Assembly: GCA_016783065.1 (NCBI GenBank)
Contig: JADHXI010000008.1
Coordinates: forward strand, 1 to 43,169
Length of the DNA stretch: 43,169 nucleotides
From: Desulfobacteraceae bacterium
GTDB lineage: Bacteria > Desulfobacterota > DSM-4660 > Desulfatiglandales > Desulfatiglandaceae
Reading direction: 5' to 3'
Each line of letters opens with the position of its first letter. Within the stretch, counting starts at the first letter, position 1. Positions 2,105 through 31,559 of this stretch are shown piece by piece. A program made the translations under genes and the position numbers. The notes below the pieces were generated by a model, which was given only the letters and a program-made list of their open reading frames with translations, had not been told where the DNA came from and searched no databases.

Positions 2105-5100
2105 TCAGACACTTTGTTTGAACAGTTCTTTCTGCCTATCAGCAACGCTCACTCCTCTTGTCTTTAGATGATTGCTTATACTTTCAAGAATGGATCGTTC
2201 CTCGCTTCCTGTGTCTGCCAACTCAATGAGTGCCTGGAGAACCTGATGAAAGGTGTTGTTGCGAAACAGTGCCCGAGCTTCAAGATAATCATCAACTTTG
2301 ACCAGTTCACCCGACTTCCAGAGTTGCATCAGACGATGAACTTGATCTATTAAAGGGATCTCTCGTCGCTGGGCGTTTTTTTCATTGTCTTCCACCGGGA
2401 GAAAAGTCATTTGCGCTGCCTTTTCCTGAGCCTTAGCGCTATCAACAGCAGGGTCATACCCCATACTCTGACGTTTACGCTGTTTCCACTGTTTGAGCCT
2501 CAAAGTGCTCCCCGTTCCCCCGCCCATATCTTCATTCGAAGCTGTCTCTTCATCGGGTTCCGGTGCGTTCTTTCCACCCGTCTTTGCAAGGATATCAAAC
2601 TGATCAACCAGAGCACGATCCGTAAGCCCACAGGAAACAGCATACAGAATACAGGGGCCGGCCGGTGCATCCTTCATCCCAAAATCGTGCCGATGTAGCA
2701 GGTAATAGGTGGTCACATCATCTAACCCGCTTACCTCCTTTGACTCACCGTCATGGGAAAGCACCCGGCCAACAACAAAATCCACAACCATCCGCCGCAC
2801 ATGCCTGAGGAATTCCGACACTTCCATTAATTTACCCGGCTCATTCGCTTTTTTAACGACCGGATGCTTGCTATATGCCTCTAGGGCGGGCCCTGTTGCC
2901 GCCCAGACAAAGTCAGGACCACGAATCCCCGCATCCCAGAAGTCTCGTAATTGTGTTTTGATATTTCCCCGCATTTCTTCGAGGACTTTGTTATCCCAGC
3001 CCGGGTGGGCAGTGTCGGAGCGTTTTTTGCAGACTATCCAGACGGACGATGCCAGAGATGCTGTTGTTATAGCGTTTGTTCGATTCCCACGTTCTGTCTG
3101 AATAGGCCAACTACCATTTACAACGAAGCCAGCTCGAACGATAGCGGAGACTAAGGTTTCCCAAGCATTTGGATATTTATTTGCAAACACCAAAACAAAA
3201 CGACCATTATTTTTTAGCACGGACTTACAGCGAGTAAAAACTTGAGCCATTCCATTTTCATAAGCAAGTTTTGATAGTATCTTGTTGCCATGGTATGCAC
3301 CTGGATCATCTATTAGTTCGCCGTCTTGCTTTTCTCTATCCCAGTTAGGAGATAACTCCCCTTTGAATACTTGACGAATATCATCTGATAAGTCATTTAG
3401 AGATCGCGAAAGCCAAACATAGAAAAAATTCATTAGGTCAGCGTAAGGTATAGCGTCATAATAGGGAGGATCAGTGAACACCAAATCAAACTCTTCAGGT
3501 GATCCTTTAAGTTTAATAGCTGATTGATTAGTGATATTTACCTCATTTGTATCTTTGATGCCTTCTAGTATCGAAGATAAAGCTAAAGCTGACCAGTTTA
3601 AGGAACTGGCATAGCCTCCTGCTGTTTGCGACAAAATGTTAGTTTCACACCAATCCCAAGCCCATGAGAATGCAAAACGAGCAAAGGTCCCTCTTATAGC
3701 CTCAAGTCCAACAATCCAAGTTGCTAAAGAGCTGTTGTAATCGGCGATCTTATCTATGCAAATACTCAGATAAGATGTTAGTGCTTCAACCCATATATCA
3801 TTATACTGACCCTTGAAAATATCATAGCGGGCTTTATGTAATTTAGAAATAAAGGTTGTCAGGCTAAGAAGTTGTCTGAATGAGAATAGGTCGGGCCACT
3901 TTCTGAGACCATATCCTGGTAATTGAGAACCAACTGCTCTATGTCTATCCGGCTTTGGCAGTGGTTCAGATGGAATACCAAATTTGCTGCGATCAACAAA
4001 TTTATTCAAGTTGTATTCAGATTCCTCCGCAATTTTGACTTCAAGACAAGTTGGCAGGCGATATTGTTTTCCCTTTTGCCCATCCACCACCACTGCTGTC
4101 ATGGTAGCCCCGAGCCTTCCACCCTTACCCTCTAAACGTATATCCTCCATAGTCATGATGGATGGACAGCAAGGACATTGAGCTCCAGAGCGTGACATTG
4201 TCCCTGCACCAATTCTCTTGTCATGCTCCCTTCTTTGTGCAGCATTACCGCCGTTTATCGGAACATCATTCTGTATTCCGAATACAACCCCCGTTTTATC
4301 TTTGTTATGTTCCATGGTAAGGAGAACCCGCTTATTGGCTTTTTTACAGAGCCAACGGGTTTTAAGAAGGGGAACGGTTCCACGGCAGTTTTTGCACTTT
4401 ACTGTTCGTGCCCAGAGGTAGGCGACTGTCGGCTTGGCAATCCATCGGGGCTTGGCTTTGTCCTCAAGGTATTTCTCGTCAAACTCGGCGTTGAGGGCAT
4501 CAATATCCGGGGCTCCATCATCTCGCAGTGGAACAAGTTTCATTTTCTTTTTTTTATACTTCTTGCCAATGTTCTTAATCGGTTCAAAATCGGCATAGGT
4601 GGGATAATATTTCGCTAAATCCTTCCTGGCTTGATTGAGCATCCATTTGCCCCATGCACGTACATGCCATGCCAGATCGGCTTCCAGCAAGGGATCTCCA
4701 CCGTGAAAATTTTCAAGTACAAACTGTTTATTTTCTTTAAGCCCCAGTTTTTCAAGCTGTGTGCGCAGCAAAGCCCCTTTGAATCCCTGTGACTTAAAAA
4801 AGGCCTCCATGAAATCACAGTCTTTTAAAATGAAATCGGGAAGAAGCCGTTTTTGGCCTGCAAGCTTTTGAGGATATTCTAAAGTACACTTCAGGATAAA
4901 CCACGCAACAGGGTTTATGTCGATTGAAGTGGCCTCACATCCTAAACGCATTGCTTCAAGTGGAATCGCTCCGCCCCCGGCAAAAGGGTCCAGAACTTTT
5001 GGGGCTCTTCCGCCGTAAGCCTTCTTTATTTCCTCCCGAAACCAGTCGAGGGTTTCCTTGTTCTCTGTCTCCCTTTTCCAGTGGAGGATTCCGCCAATTG

Positions 5101-5392
5101 TTTCCTCCTTGATATTCTCCACGATCTTGCCCGAAGGCATCTTCTTTCTTTCTATTTTTTCAACAACCCTCCCTCCGATTTTTTCCACAAGTTTTTTGCG
5201 TTTTTTGGGATCGCCAGGGTCTGGTAAAAGGGTAGCAATTAATGCAGCGCGGCATGCTGCCAGGGGTCTTCTTGCCGGCCAGATATGCAGCGTTGAAATG
5301 TGCCCATGTCGTACATTCTTCTCATGTACAGAATCCAGTGATGCCTGTTTAAGAGGAAAGGCATGTTCAATTAGGCGGGGTTTGTCATCCAT
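2105..5392 (-). CDS. DUF1156 domain-containing DNA adenine methyltransferase
   Basis: 1095 aa. N-terminal FPLKQASLDSVHEKNVRHGHISTLHIWPARRPLAACRAALIATLLPDP, VLDPFAGGGAIPLEAMRLG SAM motif, FTDPPYYDAIPYADLMNFFYVWL catalytic motif. Confidence 0.93.
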   Translation of the reverse strand: MDDKPRLIEHAFPLKQASLDSVHEKNVRHGHISTLHIWPARRPLAACRAALIATLLPDPGDPKKRKKLVEKIGGRVVEKIERKKMPSGKIVENIKEETIGGILHWKRETENKETLDWFREEIKKAYGGRAPKVLDPFAGGGAIPLEAMRLGCEATSIDINPVAWFILKCTLEYPQKLAGQKRLLPDFILKDCDFMEAFFKSQGFKGALLRTQLEKLGLKENKQFVLENFHGGDPLLEADLAWHVRAWGKWMLNQARKDLAKYYPTYADFEPIKNIGKKYKKKKMKLVPLRDDGAPDIDALNAEFDEKYLEDKAKPRWIAKPTVAYLWARTVKCKNCRGTVPLLKTRWLCKKANKRVLLTMEHNKDKTGVVFGIQNDVPINGGNAAQRREHDKRIGAGTMSRSGAQCPCCPSIMTMEDIRLEGKGGRLGATMTAVVVDGQKGKQYRLPTCLEVKIAEESEYNLNKFVDRSKFGIPSEPLPKPDRHRAVGSQLPGYGLRKWPDLFSFRQLLSLTTFISKLHKARYDIFKGQYNDIWVEALTSYLSICIDKIADYNSSLATWIVGLEAIRGTFARFAFSWAWDWCETNILSQTAGGYASSLNWSALALSSILEGIKDTNEVNITNQSAIKLKGSPEEFDLVFTDPPYYDAIPYADLMNFFYVWLSRSLNDLSDDIRQVFKGELSPNWDREKQDGELIDDPGAYHGNKILSKLAYENGMAQVFTRCKSVLKNNGRFVLVFANKYPNAWETLVSAIVRAGFVVNGSWPIQTERGNRTNAITTASLASSVWIVCKKRSDTAHPGWDNKVLEEMRGNIKTQLRDFWDAGIRGPDFVWAATGPALEAYSKHPVVKKANEPGKLMEVSEFLRHVRRMVVDFVVGRVLSHDGESKEVSGLDDVTTYYLLHRHDFGMKDAPAGPCILYAVSCGLTDRALVDQFDILAKTGGKNAPEPDEETASNEDMGGGTGSTLRLKQWKQRKRQSMGYDPAVDSAKAQEKAAQMTFLPVEDNEKNAQRREIPLIDQVHRLMQLWKSGELVKVDDYLEARALFRNNTFHQVLQALIELADTGSEERSILESISNHLKTRGVSVADRQKELFKQSV

Positions 5393-15709: not shown

Positions 15710-15749
15710 AAGCCAGGAGGTAACAAGTTAGGGGCTTCGCCCCAATTGG

Positions 15750-15780
15750 CCTCCGGCCCGTAGGGCCTACGCCCCGGAGG
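15750..15780. repeat. 31-bp GC-rich palindrome (P1)
   Basis: CCTCCGGCCCGTAGGGCCTACGCCCCGGAGG; stems CCTCCGG/CCGGAGG and GTAGG/CCTAC. Confidence 0.85.
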
Positions 15781-15805
15781 GAATGGTGGAATGGTGGAAT
15801 GTTGG

Positions 15806-15836
15806 CCTCCGGCTCGTAAAGCCTACGGCTCGGAGA
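15806..15836. repeat. 31-bp GC-rich palindrome (P2)
   Basis: CCTCCGGCTCGTAAAGCCTACGGCTCGGAGA; located inside repeat A copy 1, absent at the matching site of copy 2. Confidence 0.75.
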
Positions 15837-16058
15837 GAATAATGGGTTTTGGGTAAATGACGCAATGGTTTATTGGGAAGATCAAGTTGACAGAGCACGA
15901 GAAAAATGAGAAATTCCGATCTAATTCATTCGGTAGAAGACGGATTTCCATCATTCCATTATTCCATGTGTGAAGCAACACTGCCAAGCCTCAGTAAATA
16001 TTTACAAATTAAATAAGTTGTAGAAATTCCGAGACGTAATTTACGGAGAGGTTGCACA

Positions 16059-20254: not shown

Positions 20255-20598
20255 CAATTGGCCTCCGGCCCGTAGGGACTACGCCCCGGAGGGAACAATG
20301 GAATAGTGGAATGTTGGAATAATGGGTTTTGGGGAATTGACGGAATGGTTTATCGGGAAAATCAAGTTGATAAAGCATGAGAGAAATGAGAAATCCCGAT
20401 CTAATTCATTCGGTAGAAAACGAATTTACATCATTCCATTATTCTCTCCGAGCCGGAGGCTTTACCCTCTGGCCTGGAAGCCCTACGGGCTGGAAGCGGA
20501 GCCGGAGGCCACCATTCCATTATTCCATGTGTGAGGCAAGACTGCCAAGCCTCACTAAATATCTACAATTTCAATGGGTTGTAGAATTTCTGAGACGT
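20255..20598. repeat. Family A long intergenic repeat, copy 2 (with extra nested GC-rich insertion)
   Basis: Same orientation as 15743-16037; extra GC-rich segment inserted at CATTATTC (about 20434-20520). Abuts the stop codon of the 20599 gene. Confidence 0.93.
20262..20292. repeat. 31-bp GC-rich palindrome (P3)
   Basis: CCTCCGGCCCGTAGGGACTACGCCCCGGAGG. Confidence 0.8.
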
Positions 20599-22095
20599 TT
20601 ACTTACATCGACGGATAAACCCCAATTTTCCCGGATTCATGATGCCGAGCGGATCCAGGAGATCTTTTATCCCTTGCAGCACCGGCCACGCCGCCCCGTA
20701 TTGCTCGGGCATCAGCCAGCCGAGCTTAAAACCAATGCCATGGTGATCATTGAGGATACCGCCGTGCTGGATGGACGTCCGAGCTGCTTTGCCCCAGATT
20801 TCGGTGTGGAGCTGAAGCGCTTCGTGGGGATCCTGCGGCGGTTTTTCAATGATGAACCGGTCATAGACCATTACGCCCCACGGGAACCAGTGGGAAAAGT
20901 GACCGATATACGTCGCGCCCCACTCTTTGAACCCTTCCTCAATGACACGTTTTTTCGCTACATAGATATCGTGAATTCGGTCAAAGGTGGCGGTCGTCTC
21001 CACCGTTCCGAACATCTGGGGCAACATCAAATTTAGCGGTGGAAAGTAGAAGTCATATCGGTGTTTCCACCAATGCTCCCCCAGGTCAGGCCCCAGGTCT
21101 TTTCCGTTCAATTCCGAACAGATGTCGTGGATGGTTCTCATTTCCAGGTCCACAGATTCCTTATCCCCGTCAGATCCGACGACCATGTAGGAGCCCGCCA
21201 CATCGAGACCGAGAACCCGTTTCACAATCCGTTGTGTTGAGTTTTCGTCGTATAGGCGTATGGTGCAAGGTCTGAGACGCCGGGTCATGATGCGGCGGCC
21301 TGCTTCTAGTCCCTTTCGTATGTCATCAAAGAGATAAGCGCGCCAGCGCCGCTCTTCCGGAATAGGATCCAGCCGCATGGTGATTTCCGTAATGACCCCC
21401 AGAGTTCCCTCGGAACCCACAAACAACTGCAACAGGTCGGGTCCGCATGCGTGGCTCGGGACCGGAAGGGTTCGGATCACCTCACCCGAGGGCAGAGCTA
21501 TCTCCATACTGATGACCATATCCTCTGCTTTTCCGTATTTTGTGGAAAGGGTTCCCGAGCCCCGGGCGGCCACATATCCTCCTACTGTGGCGCCATATTG
21601 CGAAGCAGGGTAATGAGCCAGCGTAAAACCCTTTTTGTTGACCGTCCATTCAAGGTGCTGGCCATTGACCCCGGGCTGGACGGTGACGGCAAGGGATTCT
21701 TCGTCAATCTTGATGATATGGTTCATCTTTTTTACATCAAGGAGTATCCCTCCATAAAGAGGCACTGTCCCGCCCTGGGACCCTGTTCCTCCGCCATAAG
21801 GGATCACTGGAATTCCATGCCGTGAGGCCATTTTTAGCAAACGGGAGATTTCACCCGCAGATTCGGGAAAAACGATCCATTCTGGCCTGGGAGGTTTCAG
21901 GCCACTATCCAACCATATCTGGGGAACCAGATAGACATCCATACCGTAGGCAACCCGTTCCGCTTCTTGGACAGTGACATCGTCATGGCCAACGATATCC
22001 ATGATTTCATTTGTGATTACATCGAAGAGAAGGTTCTTTGACATCTCCAATTCCTGTTTCCTCCATTGATATCTCGTAGGCGTTCGAGGGTTCAA
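20599..22095 (-). CDS. FAD-binding oxidoreductase (GlcD / FAD-linked oxidase C family)
   Basis: PRPEWIVFPESAGEISRLLKMASRHGIPVIPYGGGTGSQGGTVPLYGGILLDVKKMNHI; C-terminal NDHHGIGFKLGWL...LLDPLGIMNPGKLG. Confidence 0.93.
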   Translation of the reverse strand: MNPRTPTRYQWRKQELEMSKNLLFDVITNEIMDIVGHDDVTVQEAERVAYGMDVYLVPQIWLDSGLKPPRPEWIVFPESAGEISRLLKMASRHGIPVIPYGGGTGSQGGTVPLYGGILLDVKKMNHIIKIDEESLAVTVQPGVNGQHLEWTVNKKGFTLAHYPASQYGATVGGYVAARGSGTLSTKYGKAEDMVISMEIALPSGEVIRTLPVPSHACGPDLLQLFVGSEGTLGVITEITMRLDPIPEERRWRAYLFDDIRKGLEAGRRIMTRRLRPCTIRLYDENSTQRIVKRVLGLDVAGSYMVVGSDGDKESVDLEMRTIHDICSELNGKDLGPDLGEHWWKHRYDFYFPPLNLMLPQMFGTVETTATFDRIHDIYVAKKRVIEEGFKEWGATYIGHFSHWFPWGVMVYDRFIIEKPPQDPHEALQLHTEIWGKAARTSIQHGGILNDHHGIGFKLGWLMPEQYGAAWPVLQGIKDLLDPLGIMNPGKLGFIRRCK

Positions 22096-22349
22096 AGGTT
22101 CAGGGGTTCAGGGTTCCATTCTCGTCCCCGGACTGCATTTGGGATGCGTATTTACGAGAAAAGCGTCAGCTTCGTCAGGCCTAATCCAAAATTTGGAGCC
22201 AAATTGGCAATTACTTGGGAAATCAGCATTTTTAACGAGGACTTCGGGTCTTCAATACCTTCTTTGTCCTTAACCCTGAACGTTGAACCCCGTCCGCCTC
22301 GCCTGAGCGAGAGCGATGGCGGGCAGGCCTGAACCTGTGAACAGGTTAC
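22076..22349. repeat. Family B long intergenic repeat, copy 1
   Basis: GTAGGCGTTC...GGGTTCAAAGGTTCAGGGGTTCAGGGTTCCATTCTCGTCCCCGGACTGCATTTGG...TTAACCCTGAACGTTGAACC...TGAACCTGTGAACAGG. Near-identical core to 31326-31559. Confidence 0.95.
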
Positions 22350-22373
22350 GATATCTCTTATATCACGCCATTG

Positions 22374-23270
22374 CTAAACCCGATTGGTCCACTCCCGATT
22401 TTTGACCTCCACCTTCACCTTCTCAAGTTCTTTGAGTGCCCGGCCAAGGTGTTCTCCAAAACGACAGTTTGCCTCATCACCCTTTTCTTTGCTTGCCCGC
22501 AACGGGTTTCCGATGAGGCCAGTGTCGGAAAATTCCCGGTGTTCCATGGGAAAGACAAAGTAATTGTAGCCTTCGAACTCCACGTTGGGAGTCCCGTCTT
22601 TCTTCAAAAAGGCATCCGGTAGGAAAGGTGGGGTTCTTGTCCGCTCGCTCTTTATGGCCCGATCCATTCGAACCAGTTTTTCATCCACAGACATTACCTG
22701 AGATGTTTCCAGTTCACCGGCATGCCACCCGGGCGTCTCTTCAGGAGGACCTTCCAGGACGTCTTCCACAATCCCGAGATAGTTCTCAGCCCAGGGTTTG
22801 CAGACGCCGATCAGGGCACCTGTATCGTATTTGAGGCTGCGCATCAGCGGGTCAATGATTTTCATATTCGACGCATGACCCACTACCATCATGATCTTAT
22901 TGAACCCATGGTGGATCAAACTGCGGCAGATGTCGTACATCATGTTGCGCCAGGTTTCTGCACGCACCGTGCAGGTGCCAAGGCCCTGGTTGGGAGGTCC
23001 CATATGATGGGGGCTGTACCCGACCCAGAGTTGGGGGGTGTACAGCACCTGGGCATATTCACCCGCAATCTTGGTGATGGCTTCACAGTGGAGGCTGTCT
23101 GTCAGCAACGGGCAATGATAGGAGTGCTGTTCCAGGCTGGCAACAGGCACCATCACGATATCTTTTTCCTTCAAATACTCCTGGATGTCAGGGTAGCACA
23201 GATGTCCCATGTTCCATGTTGAAAAGTCAAGCGCCATCGTTTTCATCTCCTTTCGTTGGTTCGTGCCCAT
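22374..23270 (-). CDS. Creatininase family protein
   Basis: VMVPVASLEQHSYHCPLLTDSLHCEAI...VGYSPHHMGPP...FNKIMMVVGHASNMK...GWHAGELETSQVM. Confidence 0.9.
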   Translation of the reverse strand: MGTNQRKEMKTMALDFSTWNMGHLCYPDIQEYLKEKDIVMVPVASLEQHSYHCPLLTDSLHCEAITKIAGEYAQVLYTPQLWVGYSPHHMGPPNQGLGTCTVRAETWRNMMYDICRSLIHHGFNKIMMVVGHASNMKIIDPLMRSLKYDTGALIGVCKPWAENYLGIVEDVLEGPPEETPGWHAGELETSQVMSVDEKLVRMDRAIKSERTRTPPFLPDAFLKKDGTPNVEFEGYNYFVFPMEHREFSDTGLIGNPLRASKEKGDEANCRFGEHLGRALKELEKVKVEVKNREWTNRV

Positions 23271-23365
23271 CCATAAATGGCCATTTTCCGCAATCTCTGC
23301 GTCAGTTCGGATTTTAATCCTCGAAATACTTCAATGTATTCCTGTGGTTAAAATTCTCATCTTCC

Positions 23366-23396
23366 CCTCCGGGCCGTAGGCCCTATGGGCCGGAGG
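23366..23396. repeat. 31-bp GC-rich palindrome (P4)
   Basis: CCTCCGGGCCGTAGGCCCTATGGGCCGGAGG. Confidence 0.85.
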
Positions 23397-23412
23397 CTTG
23401 ACCTTGCGAAAA

Positions 23413-24687
23413 CTAGCTCATTTCTGGATGGACACTAGTTGATTTTGCAGACCCTTTTGCCATGACCTCCTGGAACGCCGCAAAGATCCGGTCGGCAAAG
23501 GGTTCCTCATTGATATGCATTTCTTCTTCGATCACGGGAATATGGGGCTTTAAGGATTTCTTGAGGGTTTCAAAAAAGGCTTGATCCCCTTCCGGATCGT
23601 ATGTGCTGCCACCTTCCAGCCCGCCGATGCTCATGCCCAGCAACGGCAGCAAGACGATTATAGGACCTGTGGCTGCATTCACCTTTCTCGCCAACCTGGA
23701 GGCGATCTCCTTCATTTCCTCCACATTGGGTCGGATCAGAGTAAACGCTGGGTTATGGTAGTATTTTTTACGGTCATGCCATTTCTCCGGGACCGTATCC
23801 GGCGCTCCCAGGGCAAAAAAGTCCTGGCACCCTGGGACAATTACCTGAGGGATGCCGAGTTTACCTGCAGCTTCCAGCCTTTGGGGACCCGCGTCGTGAA
23901 ATCCTCCCAACAGGTTGTCTGTCAGTTCATTGGTACAAAGATCCACCACACCGCAGAAAAACCCGCGGCCAATCATATCCTCCATGACCTGGCCGCCTAC
24001 ACCACTGGTATGGAAGATGATCGGCACATACCCTGCCTTTTCCAGCCTCTGGAAGATAAATCTCATGGCCTTGTCGGTGGTGCCCAAGGTTGTGATAGGT
24101 ACCAAGTTATCCCCTTTAACTTCCATTGGCTTGTATTGATGCACCATACCGGAGATGGCGGCCCCGGCATTATTAAAAACGGACCGGCTGATGTCATTTA
24201 GGCCGGCAATATCCAGGAGGGAATGCATGACCATGATGTCGCGTATACCCACAAAAGGGCCGAAAGATCGCACACCACTTGCCAACGGCGTGATAATGAC
24301 CTTTGGAAAACCGGGCGGGAGAACTTGCATGGCAGCTGCAGCCATTACACTCCCCTCGGCCCCACCGAGCGAGATCGCCCCATGAATGCGGCCTTGTTGA
24401 AACAACCGGGCTGTAATGACCTTGGCTCCCCTTAGCATTTCATCGACCGCCTCACCCCGGCTGGGTTTTTTTCTTACCTCTTCCAACGTAGTGTCGGCGG
24501 CCTTTGCTGTTTCGGATGCTGCAATATCAGGGGTAATACCCTTTGGCTCCCCAAGGATCCCCGTGTCCAGGATAACCACATCGAGATCCTTTTCCTCGAT
24601 GCGATTCTTGAGGTAGATAACCTCTTCGCTCTTTGTATCCATGGTCGCTATAATCAGCGCGGCTTTTTTCTTTTCGCCAGCACCCAT
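23413..24687 (-). CDS. Tm-1-like ATP-binding domain / UPF0261 family protein
   Basis: AALIIATMDTKSEEVIYLKNRIEEKDLDVVILDTGILG...GAISLGGAEGSVMAAAAMQVLPPGFPKVIITPLASG. Start set to ATG 24687 (MGAGEKKK) with GGAGG RBS; the ORF track's 24702 is a TTG. Confidence 0.9.
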   Translation of the reverse strand: MGAGEKKKAALIIATMDTKSEEVIYLKNRIEEKDLDVVILDTGILGEPKGITPDIAASETAKAADTTLEEVRKKPSRGEAVDEMLRGAKVITARLFQQGRIHGAISLGGAEGSVMAAAAMQVLPPGFPKVIITPLASGVRSFGPFVGIRDIMVMHSLLDIAGLNDISRSVFNNAGAAISGMVHQYKPMEVKGDNLVPITTLGTTDKAMRFIFQRLEKAGYVPIIFHTSGVGGQVMEDMIGRGFFCGVVDLCTNELTDNLLGGFHDAGPQRLEAAGKLGIPQVIVPGCQDFFALGAPDTVPEKWHDRKKYYHNPAFTLIRPNVEEMKEIASRLARKVNAATGPIIVLLPLLGMSIGGLEGGSTYDPEGDQAFFETLKKSLKPHIPVIEEEMHINEEPFADRIFAAFQEVMAKGSAKSTSVHPEMS

Positions 24688-24843
24688 CTCTGTGTCCTCC
24701 AAATCCTTTCGCTATCAAGATTTATCCATACACATATGCCAAAACCCCGGAAAATAGTAAAGGGGCTTTATTTTCGATATGGAAAAACTGGTCCTCCGGG
24801 CCAGGTCAGAGCAAAACGGCTCTGCCTTTGTATGATTTGACAC

Positions 24844-24988
24844 GGAGTATTGGAGTTGTGGAGTATTGGAGTATTGAAACATTGTAGGAGGCGGTAATTT
24901 TTTCCGAAACAGCAACTGTTTTGTGCAATCAATCATTTTTTTCAAGGTTCTCTATCAGCACTCCAACACTCCAGTACTCCAACACTCC
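24844..24988. repeat. Family E element: GGAGTATT-unit inverted arms with an ~80-bp core
   Basis: Left GGAGTATTGGAGTTGTGGAGTATTGGAGTATTG (24844-24876); right GCACTCCAACACTCCAGTACTCCAACACTCC (24958-24988). Confidence 0.85.
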
Positions 24989-25052
24989 TTAAGACATTCA
25001 AATTTTAGCAGACTAAATCCCCTCCGGGGATAACCAAAGCCGGGTCCTCTGG

Positions 25053-27119
25053 TCATGTGATCTTTAATATCTTCTCTCCATCGGCTAAATAGAATTCAAA
25101 TCCAAATACCTCAACCTTGTGGCCATCTCTTTTCCCGACTTTGAAAGGGAGGTTGTTTACCTTGCGGCTGTCAAGCCTCTTCAGGGCCTTGTCCAACTTG
25201 TGGGCTTCCAGCCTCGTTAATTGCAGGTCAAGGAGTTCCCCGGCCCGTTCGTTGTCTTGTTCAAAACCAAACCGGGCAGAGTCCCTGCCATCTTCTTTCC
25301 ATAGTACTGCACAGAGCTTCATCCATTTTATTCTGTTGGGAATGCTGAGGCATTTCATGGTGTGAAAACCGTTTACGAACTTGACCGCGGCAAGGAAGTC
25401 GACAAATATCCGACAGTCTTCTCTAAAAGACCCGGTCACGTCCCTCAACCGCACCTCTTTGTCTCCGTCCCGATCGAGTATTTCCGAATAGGCATTTCGC
25501 CGCGCCTCCGGGGTGAACTCAGCCTGAGCCCGGACAATAAGATCACGGATGGTTCTTCTCACGATCATGTAAAACATTCTGTTGCCAAAGCCAAAAGCCT
25601 CTTCCCTGTCACGATCGGTAAGGGTGGTGTCATATGCTACATGCAGGAGAAAAACTGCAAAGTCATCCAGAAAGGTCAGCGATTCGAGGATCTCACCAGA
25701 TGTCATATCATCTGTCTCAATATATCCTTTTCCCTCAAACGCGCCATCATCCGTTACCGTGACTGGCGGGTTTCTATCAGGCCAGTTCATGCTCTTTCCA
25801 TCCTTGGTCAATAGCCTTACTGAGTCCTCCTCTGCTATCTTGGTGCCGGGGTAGGGGATGGCAGCCGACACGGAAACATGCATCGTGGCAGGATTGTAAG
25901 GCGGGTGATCTCGCAAGAATATGGCCGATCTCAGGATACTCTGCCAATCCTGTCCAGGCAGCCCAATCAACATATAAAAGGTCGTGCTGATTTTGAGCGC
26001 CGCACACCAATCTCTCAACCTGGCTATCTGCTCAAGCGTGATTTTTTTGTCGAGGTTATCCAGGAGTTCCTGATCACCTGTCTCAACGCCGATTTGGATA
26101 AAGGTCAATCCTGCGTTCCTCATCCTCTTCAACAATTCAAGGTCCAGTTGACTGGCCCTTGTTTCCGCCGTCCATTCGAATTTTAACCCCGAGGTTTCTA
26201 TCAGTTGGCAAAGACGATTGATCCTTGATTTTCGATTCAGAAGTGTCTCTTGTACGACGGCGAATCTGCGAAAACCCCTTGCGTGCAGTTTCTTTATCTC
26301 TGCAAATAGGTTGTCGGCGCTTCGTTCTCTTATAAGTCCCTTGTGAACGGCCTTCTGGGCACAAAAAACACAATGATGCGGGCACCCTGATCCTGCGAAG
26401 AGGAAGACAACTTCCTTTTTATTCTTTATCGCGTCCTCAGGATCATCCAGGAAGAGATCCATACTGTCTGACGGGAAAGGGTAATCATCGAGGGAAAGGG
26501 CATGTTTTCGGGATGGATTCAGAATAATCTCCCCGGTCTCTTTTTTGTGGGCTATCCCGGAGACCATTGAAAGGTCACCATCCCCCCAAGTATTTAACCG
26601 CAGCGCAATCTCCGTAAGGGTCTCCACGCCTTCACCGATACACGCCACCTGATAGTCTGATTCCCTGAGATACTCTGCCGGAAGAACCGAGACATGCGGG
26701 CCACCAATAACCCGCAGCGCTTCAGGTGAGATCGCCTTTGCCGCACCAGCCAGTTCATTTGCCTCATCAAGCTGGGCACTGGTGGCTGTGACGCATATCA
26801 TCAGAGGATCAACTCTGTTTTCCCGTATGAACTGATTTAAATATGCTTTGATGGATAGCCTCTTCGGTTTGAGGGAGAGGTTTATTGCCTTGACATCAAA
26901 GGATGGGTAGTCCACCGGGTTTTCCAGGACAGCTTCTTTTCTTCCGGATACGACGGCAAATCTCTGGAGAAATGTTTTGTCTCTCAGGGCACTTGCCAGG
27001 GTACCCAGACTGAGGTAACCCCTGAGCCTGTCTTTTCTCTCATATCTCTCGGATCCCGTGGAGGGATTCACAAAAAGAACAGAAGGGTTCCTCTGTTTCC
27101 ATGAATCTGTCTCGGCCAT
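25053..27119 (-). CDS. B12-binding domain radical SAM protein
   Basis: GGPHVSVLPAEYLRESDYQVACIGEGVETLTEI B12-binding region; GSGCPHHCVFCAQKA (CxxxCxxC). Confidence 0.93.
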   Translation of the reverse strand: MAETDSWKQRNPSVLFVNPSTGSERYERKDRLRGYLSLGTLASALRDKTFLQRFAVVSGRKEAVLENPVDYPSFDVKAINLSLKPKRLSIKAYLNQFIRENRVDPLMICVTATSAQLDEANELAGAAKAISPEALRVIGGPHVSVLPAEYLRESDYQVACIGEGVETLTEIALRLNTWGDGDLSMVSGIAHKKETGEIILNPSRKHALSLDDYPFPSDSMDLFLDDPEDAIKNKKEVVFLFAGSGCPHHCVFCAQKAVHKGLIRERSADNLFAEIKKLHARGFRRFAVVQETLLNRKSRINRLCQLIETSGLKFEWTAETRASQLDLELLKRMRNAGLTFIQIGVETGDQELLDNLDKKITLEQIARLRDWCAALKISTTFYMLIGLPGQDWQSILRSAIFLRDHPPYNPATMHVSVSAAIPYPGTKIAEEDSVRLLTKDGKSMNWPDRNPPVTVTDDGAFEGKGYIETDDMTSGEILESLTFLDDFAVFLLHVAYDTTLTDRDREEAFGFGNRMFYMIVRRTIRDLIVRAQAEFTPEARRNAYSEILDRDGDKEVRLRDVTGSFREDCRIFVDFLAAVKFVNGFHTMKCLSIPNRIKWMKLCAVLWKEDGRDSARFGFEQDNERAGELLDLQLTRLEAHKLDKALKRLDSRKVNNLPFKVGKRDGHKVEVFGFEFYLADGEKILKIT

Positions 27120-27143
27120 TTTTTTGAAAATGCCTGAAAAGCG

Positions 27144-27171
27144 CCAACCCCGTAACGAATGACGGGGTTGG
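27144..27171. terminator. Perfect 10-bp stem-loop between two minus-strand genes
   Basis: CCAACCCCGT-aacgaatg-ACGGGGTTGG; downstream of the SDR at 27209-27955. Only a short T tract follows. Confidence 0.45.
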
Positions 27172-27208
27172 TAGGGGGTTATGGTGATGGAGAGTGACGT
27201 TTATGAGG

Positions 27209-27955
27209 TCAAATCATATACACCCCACCGTTCACGTCCAGGGTAACTCCGGTGACAAAAGGGGAGTCCAAGAGATACTCAAAGGCGCGAACAACATCTG
27301 CGACATTTCCGATTTCAGGAACCAGTACTTTGTCCTTGAGGGCCGCCTTCTGTTCTTCGGACCATTCAACAAAGATCCCTGCATCCTCAATAAATGCCGG
27401 GGCAATGGCGTTGACGGTGATTCCGAATTTCCCCAAATCCCGTGCCGCAAACCTGGTTAAACCCAAGAGTCCGGCCTTGGAAGCCGCGTAGTGTGGCCCT
27501 AACACGCCAACTCCCCTGGCAGCCACAGATGAAATGTTCATGATGCGGCCATAGCCCCCCGCCTTCATCCCCGGAATCACCTGGGAAGACCAATAAAAGG
27601 CGCTGCTCAGGTTTATTCGTATTGTGTCGTCCCAATCGGAAATGGAGATCTCTTCAAACGACCTCTTGAACATAATCCCCGCGCAGTTGACCAGGACGCT
27701 TACGGGCCCCAGTTCTTTGTTGACCTCCTGATGCTGCTCTGCAACAACGTCTGAGTCTCCTGCATCACCTTTTAGCAGGAGGACTTGTTGTTCCTTGCCA
27801 ATAAGATGCTCCAACCGGTCTTTGGCGCTCTTGGCGGCCGCATCATTGTCCTTGTAAGTAATGGCCACGGAAGCGCCCCGAGCCAACAAAGATTCTGCGA
27901 TTCCCAGGCCGATCCCCCGGGTCCCCCCGCTCACCACAGCTATCGTTTGTTTCAT
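27209..27955 (-). CDS. SDR family oxidoreductase (FabG-like)
   Basis: IAVVSGGTRGIGLGIAESL, VNCAG, YAASKAGLLGLTR. Confidence 0.92.
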   Translation of the reverse strand: MKQTIAVVSGGTRGIGLGIAESLLARGASVAITYKDNDAAAKSAKDRLEHLIGKEQQVLLLKGDAGDSDVVAEQHQEVNKELGPVSVLVNCAGIMFKRSFEEISISDWDDTIRINLSSAFYWSSQVIPGMKAGGYGRIMNISSVAARGVGVLGPHYAASKAGLLGLTRFAARDLGKFGITVNAIAPAFIEDAGIFVEWSEEQKAALKDKVLVPEIGNVADVVRAFEYLLDSPFVTGVTLDVNGGVYMI

Positions 27956-28208
27956 TTTTTCACCTCAAAGAAGATCATTGGCGTTTAAACACAAAGAAAG
28001 CGCCCTGGAAAAGCCAGGCTGCACCGCGTGTCAAAAAGGTTTTTTCCAGGCGGATTATAGGCGAGATTGTTTTTCCGTGTCAACGGAGAGTCCAGCCAGA
28101 ATCTTGTTCTTGGACTTACAGACCGTAAAATTTCAAGAAGGAATGATCAGGTCTCAAAAAGATTCAGATGAGTGCCTTTTGATTTGAAATGTGTTATGGA
28201 ACCGTAAT

Positions 28209-28458
28209 TTCTCAATAAACCCGGGTACCGTGGGGCTCGGCCATTTCTTTCAGGCGCTCTCTAAACCTGTAGCCACAGCGTGGCTGATATTTGGGGTTTT
28301 GCCAAAAGCACGGAGAAGCCAATAGGATTCATCAAGAGAAAACCCAAAATATCAACCACTGCGAAAGTGAGAAATAAATACACTTTGAGAGAGCGCCTGA
28401 AAGAAACACCCGAACCCCACTCCAGAAATCCTATTATTTCTCCCGAATTTATTGAGAA
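28209..28458. repeat. ~250-bp long imperfect inverted repeat (MITE-like or structured RNA candidate)
   Basis: TTCTCAATAAA, TGGGG(C/T)TCGG, TTTCTTTCAGGCGCTCTCT and GTGG(C/T)TGATATTT(G/T)GGGTTTT occur in order on the left and inverted on the right. Confidence 0.88.
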
Positions 28459-28494
28459 GTTAAGAGATATGTTTAGTTAACCCAGGAGGAAGTT

Positions 28495-29520
28495 ATGAAA
28501 AGAAATATGGCCATTTTGGGTACAGGGGCCATTGGGAGCAGCGTTGGCGCAGACCTCACCAGGGCCGGGTACAATGTGGTGCTTATTGACCAATGGCCCG
28601 CTCATGTTGAGGTCATGAAAAAAGACGGGTTGCGGGTGACGATGCCCGATGAGGAACTGCACACCCCGGTAAAGGCGCTCCATCTCTGCGAGGTGTGTAC
28701 TGTGGACCATCTGTTTGACCTGGTCCTTCTTACGGCCAAATCGTACGACAGCCGCTGGATGGCGGAGTTTGTCAAACCCTATTTGAAACCGGATGGCATG
28801 TTGGTATCTTTGCAGAACAGCCTCAATGACGAGTGGATCGCTCCGATTATAGGGTTTAACCGGGACATCGGTGCTGTTGTCGAGCTATCGGCAGAGATCT
28901 TTGAACCGGGAGTTGTGAAACGCAACACCAGCCATGAAGGCACGTGGTTTGCATTGGGTGAACTCCACGGCAGGGTGACCCCCCGTGTGGAAGAACTGGC
29001 GCAGCTCTTAAAGGCAGTCGGTAAAACAGAAATCACTACCAACATATGGGGGGCCAAATGGACCAAGCTGATTGCAAACTGCATGCTACAGGCCCCCATC
29101 GGAATCCTTGGGCTTTATGAGTGGGAGGCGACCCAGATCCCCCAGGTCTTTGAGTTCTGTATCGGATTGGGGAGGGAGGCTATGGAAGTGGGCACAAGCC
29201 TTGGATACAAAATAGAGGCCATCTATGGGCTGAGCCCGGACGAATTCATGGGCTCAACAGATGAAGTGCTTGAAAAGAATCTGGTGACCCTTGTCACCCA
29301 TATTGGCAAAGAGGCACGCAATTCAGTCCTCCAGGATCACCTCAAAGGGCGGTACAGCGAGGTAGATACGCTGAACGGCCTTATTGTGCAGAAGGGAAAA
29401 GAGGCCGGGGTGGCTACGCCTTTGAATGAGGCAGTCACTTCCCTCACCCGGGAGATACAAAAAGGGACATTAAGCCCTGATCGGTCCAACCTCACAATCC
29501 TCGAAAAACTGTTGACCTAA
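28495..29520 (+). CDS. Ketopantoate reductase family protein (2-dehydropantoate 2-reductase-like)
   Basis: MAILGTGAIGSSVGADLTRAGYNVVLIDQW; WGAKWTKLIANCMLQAPIGILG; AGGAGG RBS. Confidence 0.9.
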   Translation: MKRNMAILGTGAIGSSVGADLTRAGYNVVLIDQWPAHVEVMKKDGLRVTMPDEELHTPVKALHLCEVCTVDHLFDLVLLTAKSYDSRWMAEFVKPYLKPDGMLVSLQNSLNDEWIAPIIGFNRDIGAVVELSAEIFEPGVVKRNTSHEGTWFALGELHGRVTPRVEELAQLLKAVGKTEITTNIWGAKWTKLIANCMLQAPIGILGLYEWEATQIPQVFEFCIGLGREAMEVGTSLGYKIEAIYGLSPDEFMGSTDEVLEKNLVTLVTHIGKEARNSVLQDHLKGRYSEVDTLNGLIVQKGKEAGVATPLNEAVTSLTREIQKGTLSPDRSNLTILEKLLT

Positions 29521-29593
29521 CACACATCGTGAAGCAGATGGGGATTTACCCTCCAGGGGACGCGTGGGGGGCCCTGTGAACGCCAAAACACCT

Positions 29594-30871
29594 CTATTCA
29601 ATGGGCTTTTCTCTCGGTTTTAAAACCAATATGACAAGCGACACCGCCAGCAGGGCGATCATGTTTAGTTGCCAGGCATATGCATAGGTTCCCGTAGCAT
29701 CAAATATGATACCCCCCAAAAGAGGTCCTATGGCGCCGCCGATTCCGGCCACAAAGAATATTAGCAGCCCAAAGGCAGTTCCCAGCATATGGCGGCCGAA
29801 TCTGTCTGAAAGTAAATACGGCATTAGGGGTGCCAGGGAGCCATACCCAAATCCGAAGATAAGGGCGAAAAAAGTTAGTCCCATCATCGTCTTGGCCTTC
29901 AATAAGGCAAACATGCCAAATGCCATAAGTAAGTAACCCAGAGAGGCCGAATACTTGGCATCTTTGACCCTATCGCTCAGCCATCCAAAGAAAAATTTTC
30001 CGAAACCGCCACTAATGCCGATGATACCCAGTGAAGAAGCTGCGGCAATCTTTCCGATATCCTGGTTTATAGCATAGGTGACTTGATGGACAAAGGTCAT
30101 CATCGAGGTCATCGCACCCACAATGTTGCACAGGGCCAAGATCCAAAAGCGTGTGTTTTTCAAGAGGGGTTTGATGGATATCTTTTCGGCTTTACCGGGC
30201 GAACTGTCCGGTCTTGTCAACTTCTTATCGGCCCTTTTTCCATCGGGCAACAGGCCGAGCGATTCCGGGTTGGGTTTGCCCATAAAGGCCTGAGAAATTA
30301 GAATTCCGAAGACAAATATCAACGCACTTATAAAGATAAAGCCAATCCGCCAGGGATAATGTTTCACAATATAACCCGCCAAGGGGGTCAAAATCATCGT
30401 TCCAAATCCGATTCCCATGCTGGAAATCCCCATGGCCAGTCCTCTTTTCCTCAAAAACCACTTTCCCACTGCGGCGTTGTTGACCACGACGCCGGCGCAG
30501 GCTGTACCAATTCCACACAAGAGACCATAGGAGAAAAATAGACCCATCGGGGTTCGGATAAAATTCATTGAGCCAAAACCGAGTGCGGTAATGATAGCGC
30601 CAACCGTCAGAATCCATCGGGGAGCAACTTTATCAAGGAGTCTGCCGGTGAAAATCCCGATCAACGCATACACGAAAAGATTGATGGAAGCCCCCAGGGA
30701 AATAACAGACATGGGCCAGTTGTATTCCAGGAACATCGGTTTCACAAAGACGCCAAAGCAATAGCGGGCGCCATATGTGAGACTGAGCATTCCAAAGGCA
30801 CCAAAAACCACAAACCACCCCCAATAAATGCTTTCTCCCTTTCTTGTCAGTCTTGAAAAATATTGATTCAT
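29594..30871 (-). CDS. MFS transporter (OFA/monocarboxylate-type)
   Basis: 12-TM-like hydrophobic ORF: YGARYCFGVFVKPMFLEYNWPMSVISLGASINLF, GRLLDKVAPRWILTVGAI, GWLSDRVKDAK. Confidence 0.9.
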   Translation of the reverse strand: MNQYFSRLTRKGESIYWGWFVVFGAFGMLSLTYGARYCFGVFVKPMFLEYNWPMSVISLGASINLFVYALIGIFTGRLLDKVAPRWILTVGAIITALGFGSMNFIRTPMGLFFSYGLLCGIGTACAGVVVNNAAVGKWFLRKRGLAMGISSMGIGFGTMILTPLAGYIVKHYPWRIGFIFISALIFVFGILISQAFMGKPNPESLGLLPDGKRADKKLTRPDSSPGKAEKISIKPLLKNTRFWILALCNIVGAMTSMMTFVHQVTYAINQDIGKIAAASSLGIIGISGGFGKFFFGWLSDRVKDAKYSASLGYLLMAFGMFALLKAKTMMGLTFFALIFGFGYGSLAPLMPYLLSDRFGRHMLGTAFGLLIFFVAGIGGAIGPLLGGIIFDATGTYAYAWQLNMIALLAVSLVILVLKPREKPIE

Positions 30872-31325
30872 TGTCTCTCCAGGTCCGCAGCGGTCAGAAA
30901 CAGCACCCGCCGGCTTTTTTTGAAATTAGTATGAGATCGGTACTTATAACACTTCACCCCGATGTTGCAAAAGATATCTGCGTTACTTGTAAAATAAACT
31001 GCGTTATCAGTGTGAAATTGCCAAACTGATGCTCCATCACGAATTCACATTCAATGCGGTCTCCCGCGAAAAGCGAGAAATCAATTATCGGGTTTGGTAA
31101 TTGAATGGCAGGATGTTTCGTCTACTCGGGCCAATTCTAATGCAACATCGGGGTTCACGCAGTCTGTGCAATGAGCAATTTGTCTGGAGGTCGGAATTTT
31201 GGATCTCTTCCATGTAGGTTTTATCTCTCCAACCGTCCGGCGGCGACGCGGAGGTCCCCAATTCATGTCTGTTTTTTCTTGACATCTTCCAAAGTATTTT
31301 CTTAAGGTCCTCACAATAATGATGT

Positions 31326-31559
31326 GTAGGCGTTCACGGGTTCAAAGGTTCAGGGGTTCAAGGTTCCATTCTCGTCCCCGGACTGCATTTGGAATCCGTA
31401 TTTACGAGAAAAGCGTCATCTTCGTCAGGCCTAACCCATAATTTGGAGCCAAATTGGCAATAACTTGGAAAATGAGCATTTTTAGCGAAGACTTCGGGTC
31501 TTCAATGACTTCTTTGTCCTTAACCCTGAACCTCTGAACCTAGAACCTGTGAACGCTAC
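31326..31559. repeat. Family B long intergenic repeat, copy 2
   Basis: Near-identical core to 22076-22349 in the same orientation; lacks the ~40-bp GC-rich insertion of copy 1. Confidence 0.95.

Follow-up and report, generated by a model that had tools for sequence, protein, structure and literature searches.

A gene-less repeat in a Desulfobacteraceae genome is a new MITE family, probably of the IS66 type

A repeat pair and the genes between its copies

The window, by which we mean the whole 43,169-nucleotide stretch of Desulfobacteraceae DNA that was analysed, holds two copies of a repeat, here called repeat B, in direct orientation; the alignment of 22076-22281 with 31326-31531 covers 206 nt at 93% identity. 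A sequence-only reading had placed the repeat at 22076-22349 and 31326-31559, and these positions are indeed the exact ends of two elements. Copy 1 (22076-22349, plus strand, 274 bp) is bounded by the terminal inverted repeats (TIRs) GTAGGCGTTCGAGGGTTCA ... TGAACCTGTGAACAGGTTAC, its outermost bases being GTAGGC...GGTTAC. Copy 2 (31326-31559, plus strand, 234 bp) lies in the same orientation, has the outermost bases GTAGGC...GCTAC and the right end ...GTGAACGCTAC, and contains a conserved core at 31358-31540 (plus strand). As that reading also described, the left arm of both copies has GGTTCA units and the right arm TGAACC units. The 40 bp by which copy 1 exceeds copy 2 are explained mainly by a palindromic, GC-rich stretch of about 40 bp that is inserted into the right arm of copy 1 (about 22289-22329).

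This palindrome (22289-22329; CCGTCCGCCTCGCC...GGCGGGCAGG) is nested in several other copies as well: the insert region of copy 1 (query 186-274) was matched at C129, C7 and C198, and query 223-252 at C101. Full-length matches to copy 1 lie at C193 and C4. Different GC-rich palindromes stand at similar places in some other copies.

Neither window copy contains an ORF of 100 aa, in keeping with the earlier claim that the core has no convincing coding capacity. Pfam likewise confirmed the genes named between the copies: creatininase, UPF0261, B12-binding radical SAM, SDR, ApbA/PanE (the ketopantoate-reductase-like gene) and MFS.

The window also holds two direct copies of a separate repeat family, at 15743-16037 and 20255-20598, with blocks 88-92% identical. 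One side has units of the type GGAATGGTGGAATG, the opposite side has CCATTATTCCA units, and GC-rich palindromic inserts are present as well; part of this family (query 5010-5106) is also matched in relatives.

Copies, ends and target duplications of repeat B

The proposed copy-number check by blastn gave 46 matches to copy 1 in its own genome (E<=0.01), a copy number far beyond chance; some 30 of the matches exceed 100 bp. The assembly comprises 3.69 Mb in 208 contigs and is 72% complete. The sequence-only reading had held that a core found only at the two sites, with flanks extending into genes, would count against it; the outcome was the opposite, dozens of copies. A search of the same genome for the TIR pattern (<=2 mismatches) returned 91 sites, 49 forward and 42 reverse, and the reversed control returned 0.

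Repeat B is also widespread among relatives. Its core was matched in 17 of 41 genomes, its own included; some of these belong to other families of the order, with identities reaching 96%, although single core matches in MAGs may be binning errors. Across genera the core is about 70-96% identical. Of 85 genomes from the order, 38 have exact occurrences of the TIR pattern (the class-level search covered the same 85), again with 0 in the reversed control, and one Desulfobacterales MAG has as many as 184 TIR sites (<=1 mismatch). Among the matches listed in a scan of GTDB contigs, most came from MAGs titled Desulfobacterales, Desulfobacteraceae or Deltaproteobacteria, with one Chloroflexi label and a few titled Proteobacteria/Pseudomonadota, Syntrophobacterales or only bacterium. 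We rejected a phage or plasmid origin, as neither the phage nor the plasmid collection searched contained a match to the repeat. The sole TIR match in a viral contig (L236), which is phage-like, lacks GGTTCA units behind it as well as a second TIR to pair with, and seems to be a chance hit.

Each full copy is a discrete element, in most cases of 219-239 bp, with imperfect TIRs of the form GTA(A/G)NCGTTCACNGGTTCA and subterminal GGTTCA/TGAACC units. The left end is GTAGGCGTTCACGGGTTCAAAGGTTCAGGGGTTCAAGGTT and the right end CCTGAACGTTGAACCCTGAACCTGTGAACGGTTAC; both start with GTA and have GGTTCA-type units inside. More generally the TIR starts GTA(A/G)NCG, with GTAG rather than GTAA in many left ends. 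Relatives commonly have elements of about 60-480 bp in which these ends enclose a quite different interior, so it is the ends, not the core, that are shared. The core of repeat B is present in 47 of the 90 elements analysed, about half.

Elements with paired TIRs are flanked by short direct repeats. Exact 8-bp repeats were found at 34 of the 90, compared with a mean of 0.07 in shuffled pairings; with one mismatch allowed, the figures were 57 of 90 and 0.43. Other repeat lengths (4-7 and 9-13 bp) gave no comparable excess, and none was clearly enriched. The duplicated octamers are A/T-rich (72% A+T, against 51% in the flanks), and only 15 of 72 insertion points fall inside ORFs, where 57 were expected from ORF coverage as estimated with a crude ORF caller. 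In the window, copy 1 has the exact octamer GATATCTC on both sides (22068-22075 and 22350-22357). The flanks of copy 2, AATGATGT and CTCTTGGC, differ, so this copy has either lost its target duplication or originated through recombination.

The site of copy 1 can be compared with a relative of the same genus, G002. There the genes on either side of copy 1 are direct neighbours: a spacer of 45 bp separates them and the element is missing, against 329 bp between the aligned blocks in the window. Divergence between the spacers is too high for a base-exact empty site to be read from this pair, and a local comparison of flanks among the fetched loci found no clean empty site. Several of the genes enclosed by the window copies are collinear in G002. 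The B12-binding radical SAM gene (25053-27119) has no aligned counterpart between its neighbours there (L271, G002:C16), the flanking blocks being about 76 bp apart; this difference is a gene gain or loss.

These data bear on the earlier description of the repeat as duplicated around a module of about 9 kb. Two copies in direct orientation around a block of genes could suggest a composite transposon or a segmental duplication carrying that gene set. Copy 1, however, has a target duplication of its own, solitary copies exist by the dozen, and several of the enclosed genes stand collinear in G002, which has no element at the copy-1 site. Moreover, the outer ends of the pair have no 8-bp repeat in common (GATATCTC at 22068-22075 against CTCTTGGC after 31559). 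G002 collinearity and the flanking octamers lead us to reject this explanation, which we regard as almost certainly wrong. Because the two window copies belong to dozens, the 9-kb interval has no special status. To describe the repeat as duplicated around it was misleading. The copies are independent insertions, and the genes between them are neither cargo nor a mobile package.

The same reading had offered structural conservation or recent transposition as reasons for the conserved core. A structured RNA gene, or a regulatory RNA element, that had spread through duplication would account for the maintenance of the core across genera, and the whole element does fold far better than shuffles (z -7.2). 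This strong fold, however, is owed to the arms. The core alone gave z -0.5 and -1.8 on the two strands, no better than shuffles on one and slightly better on the other. The suggested covariation check, made with RNAalifold over 35 copies, yielded 14 pairs, all between the two arms and none with a compensatory, two-sided change; an Rfam search of the repeat gave no match, and the 8-bp target duplications flanking the elements also argue against this explanation. We therefore rejected a conserved RNA, which is very improbable. Of the two suggestions, transposition is the one that stood.

In summary, dispersed copies, TIRs, 8-bp duplications and presence or absence between relatives lead us to conclude that repeat B is a new family of MITEs (non-autonomous DNA transposons), well supported as a mobile element. 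Its members are short and without a transposase ORF, their target duplication has a fixed length, and they amount to a gene-less jumping element of ~235 bases with copies dispersed over the genomes of this bacterium and of its sulfate-reducer-like relatives.

The candidate transposase

IS66 elements have TIRs of 20-30 bp starting GTAAGCG and make 8-bp repeats (PMC11946415). ISDge4, a transposing member of this family, which has been described as insufficiently characterised, has the TIR GTAACTGCTCAGCA and the 8-bp repeat CCTCGATG (PMC12898284). Repeat B shows both hallmarks, a TIR start of GTA(A/G)NCG against the published GTAAGCG and an 8-bp target duplication, which points to an IS66-type assignment. 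We consider it very probable that repeat B is a MITE family moved in trans by an IS66-family DDE transposase with 8-bp target duplication. The enzyme would recognise the TIR GTA(A/G)NCGTTCAC..., probably together with the GGTTCA subterminal units as putative binding sites, and would insert the element, with duplication of 8 bp, mostly into A/T-rich intergenic DNA.

Several IS66 loci in relatives indeed combine GTA-starting TIRs with 8-bp repeats. The complete 2,374-bp element L293, from the one-contig genome G049, encodes a DruA-like protein of 298 aa and a TnpC of 496 aa, has the ends GTAATCGATCACAGG/GTATTTGATCACAGG and is flanked by the exact 8-bp repeat CGGGAAAG; a search restricted to GTA, an inverted repeat and an 8-bp repeat recovered it as well. 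L294 and L299 likewise have exact 8-bp repeats, and these duplications give independent support to their ends. A further IS66 locus lies in G074, a genome of the same family (L237; PF03050, E 9e-33), with frames or fragments of DruA, DUF6444 and DDE_Tnp_IS66; its transposase frame is broken and its left end is off the contig. About 120 bp behind the transposase it has a doubled GTAACCGTTCACGGCTT as its end, of which 16 of the 17 outer bases equal the MITE TIR. L293, L294 and L297 each have one end that is identical to the MITE TIR at 14-15 of 17 positions, and other IS66 ends in relatives are weaker, at 8-11 of 17; since all these ends except L293 were found with a MITE-TIR-like pattern, the identities are biased upwards. 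Earlier searches for IS66 ends with a strict TIR gave nothing convincing. Judged by this TIR likeness, the enzyme is most likely an IS66 TnpC, encoded in relatives beside a DruA-like protein.

A second dispersed family, at 28204-28462 in the window, is about 260 bp long and has dozens of copies in G001 and G002 (both of the same genus) at 77-90% identity. It has the ends GTAANNTCTCAA(A/T)AA, and elements with such ends, which vary in length and perhaps in their interiors, are flanked by exact 8-bp repeats at seven loci in relatives and own-genome contigs (L020, L047, L116, L121, L161, L164 and L243). An IS66-like element of 1,788 bp (L238; PF03050, 534-aa frame) has the same TIR at each of its two ends (GTAAGTTCTCAAAAAGTTCGGGTA) but no duplication. 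The second family is therefore probably another IS66-type MITE, and this order thus seems to contain IS66-type MITEs together with a coding element that matches them, a parallel that makes the IS66 assignment of repeat B more likely.

Several observations nevertheless speak against an IS66 enzyme. No PF03050 protein was found in the genome of the window (72% complete) or in the closed genome G067, even though the latter has about 19 TIR pairs, all of them short elements of 90-460 bp; none of the searched genomes of the order yielded an intact IS66 element bounded by the complete MITE end (GTAACCGTTCACNGGTTCA plus GGTTCA units); and the low match of the other IS66 ends and the missing duplication at copy 2 weigh on the same side. 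One candidate for an autonomous element, a TIR pair 2,265 bp apart (L163), was rejected: its frames are unlike a transposase, one of them ending, by eye, like an OmpA-type protein, and it has no duplication. The absence of an IS66 transposase from these two genomes would suit a different DDE transposase with the same 8-bp duplication length, in which case the GTA ends would be convergent. We think this unlikely: the combination of a GTA start and an 8-bp repeat is what has been published as the mark of IS66 (PMC11946415), the 16/17 match lies beside an IS66 tnpC in a genome of the same family, and the second MITE family has its TIR in common with an IS66-like element. The enzyme that moves the MITEs may be lost, rare or acting from outside. 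Overall, we favor a new MITE family, probably of the IS66 type and ordinary in kind, with the enzyme family moderately to well supported.

The IS66 transposase gene adjoins a gene for a DruA-like protein (PF14236, Druantia) at L293:4591-6964, L299:399-5054 and L237:1-1700, and in L293 the two lie inside one TIR-bounded element. DruA is known from Druantia defence. DUF4338 together with IS66 was not found in the literature searched. A bolder and rather doubtful proposal is that a large clade of GGTTCA-array MITEs spreads across the order, in genomes without a coding element of the same ends, through a two-gene system of IS66 and the DruA-like partner or through a host-owned transposase acting in trans. 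If the two-gene system did act in trans, DruA would be a transposition factor.

Comparison with known mobile repeats

Repeat B resembles MITECca01 of Cardinium (PMC9769881) and the MITEs of Pseudomonas syringae (PMC3189936) in being short and non-coding, with inverted-repeat ends and many copies; unlike those of these bacterial MITEs, its parent cannot be named exactly. The word IS66 is absent from a review of prokaryotic MITEs (PMC10969869), and the literature searched turned up no IS66-type MITEs.

The results explain a kind of repeat that abounds between the genes of Desulfobacterales MAGs, and they define ends precise enough for the copies to be masked, counted and dated. The pairing of DruA with TnpC also ties a protein family named for defence to an insertion sequence.

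REP/BIME repeats, which are moved by RAYT (Y1) transposases, are similarly intergenic, dispersed and palindromic in part. They differ from repeat B, which has 8-bp duplications and TIRs; REPs are not known to have either. The nearest known system is the IS66 family (TnpC, PF03050, often with a DruA-like partner ORF in relatives). Repeat B differs from it in being non-coding and in its GGTTCA/TGAACC subterminal units, not seen in the IS66 elements found, and has in common with it the GTA(A) start of the TIR and the 8-bp duplication.
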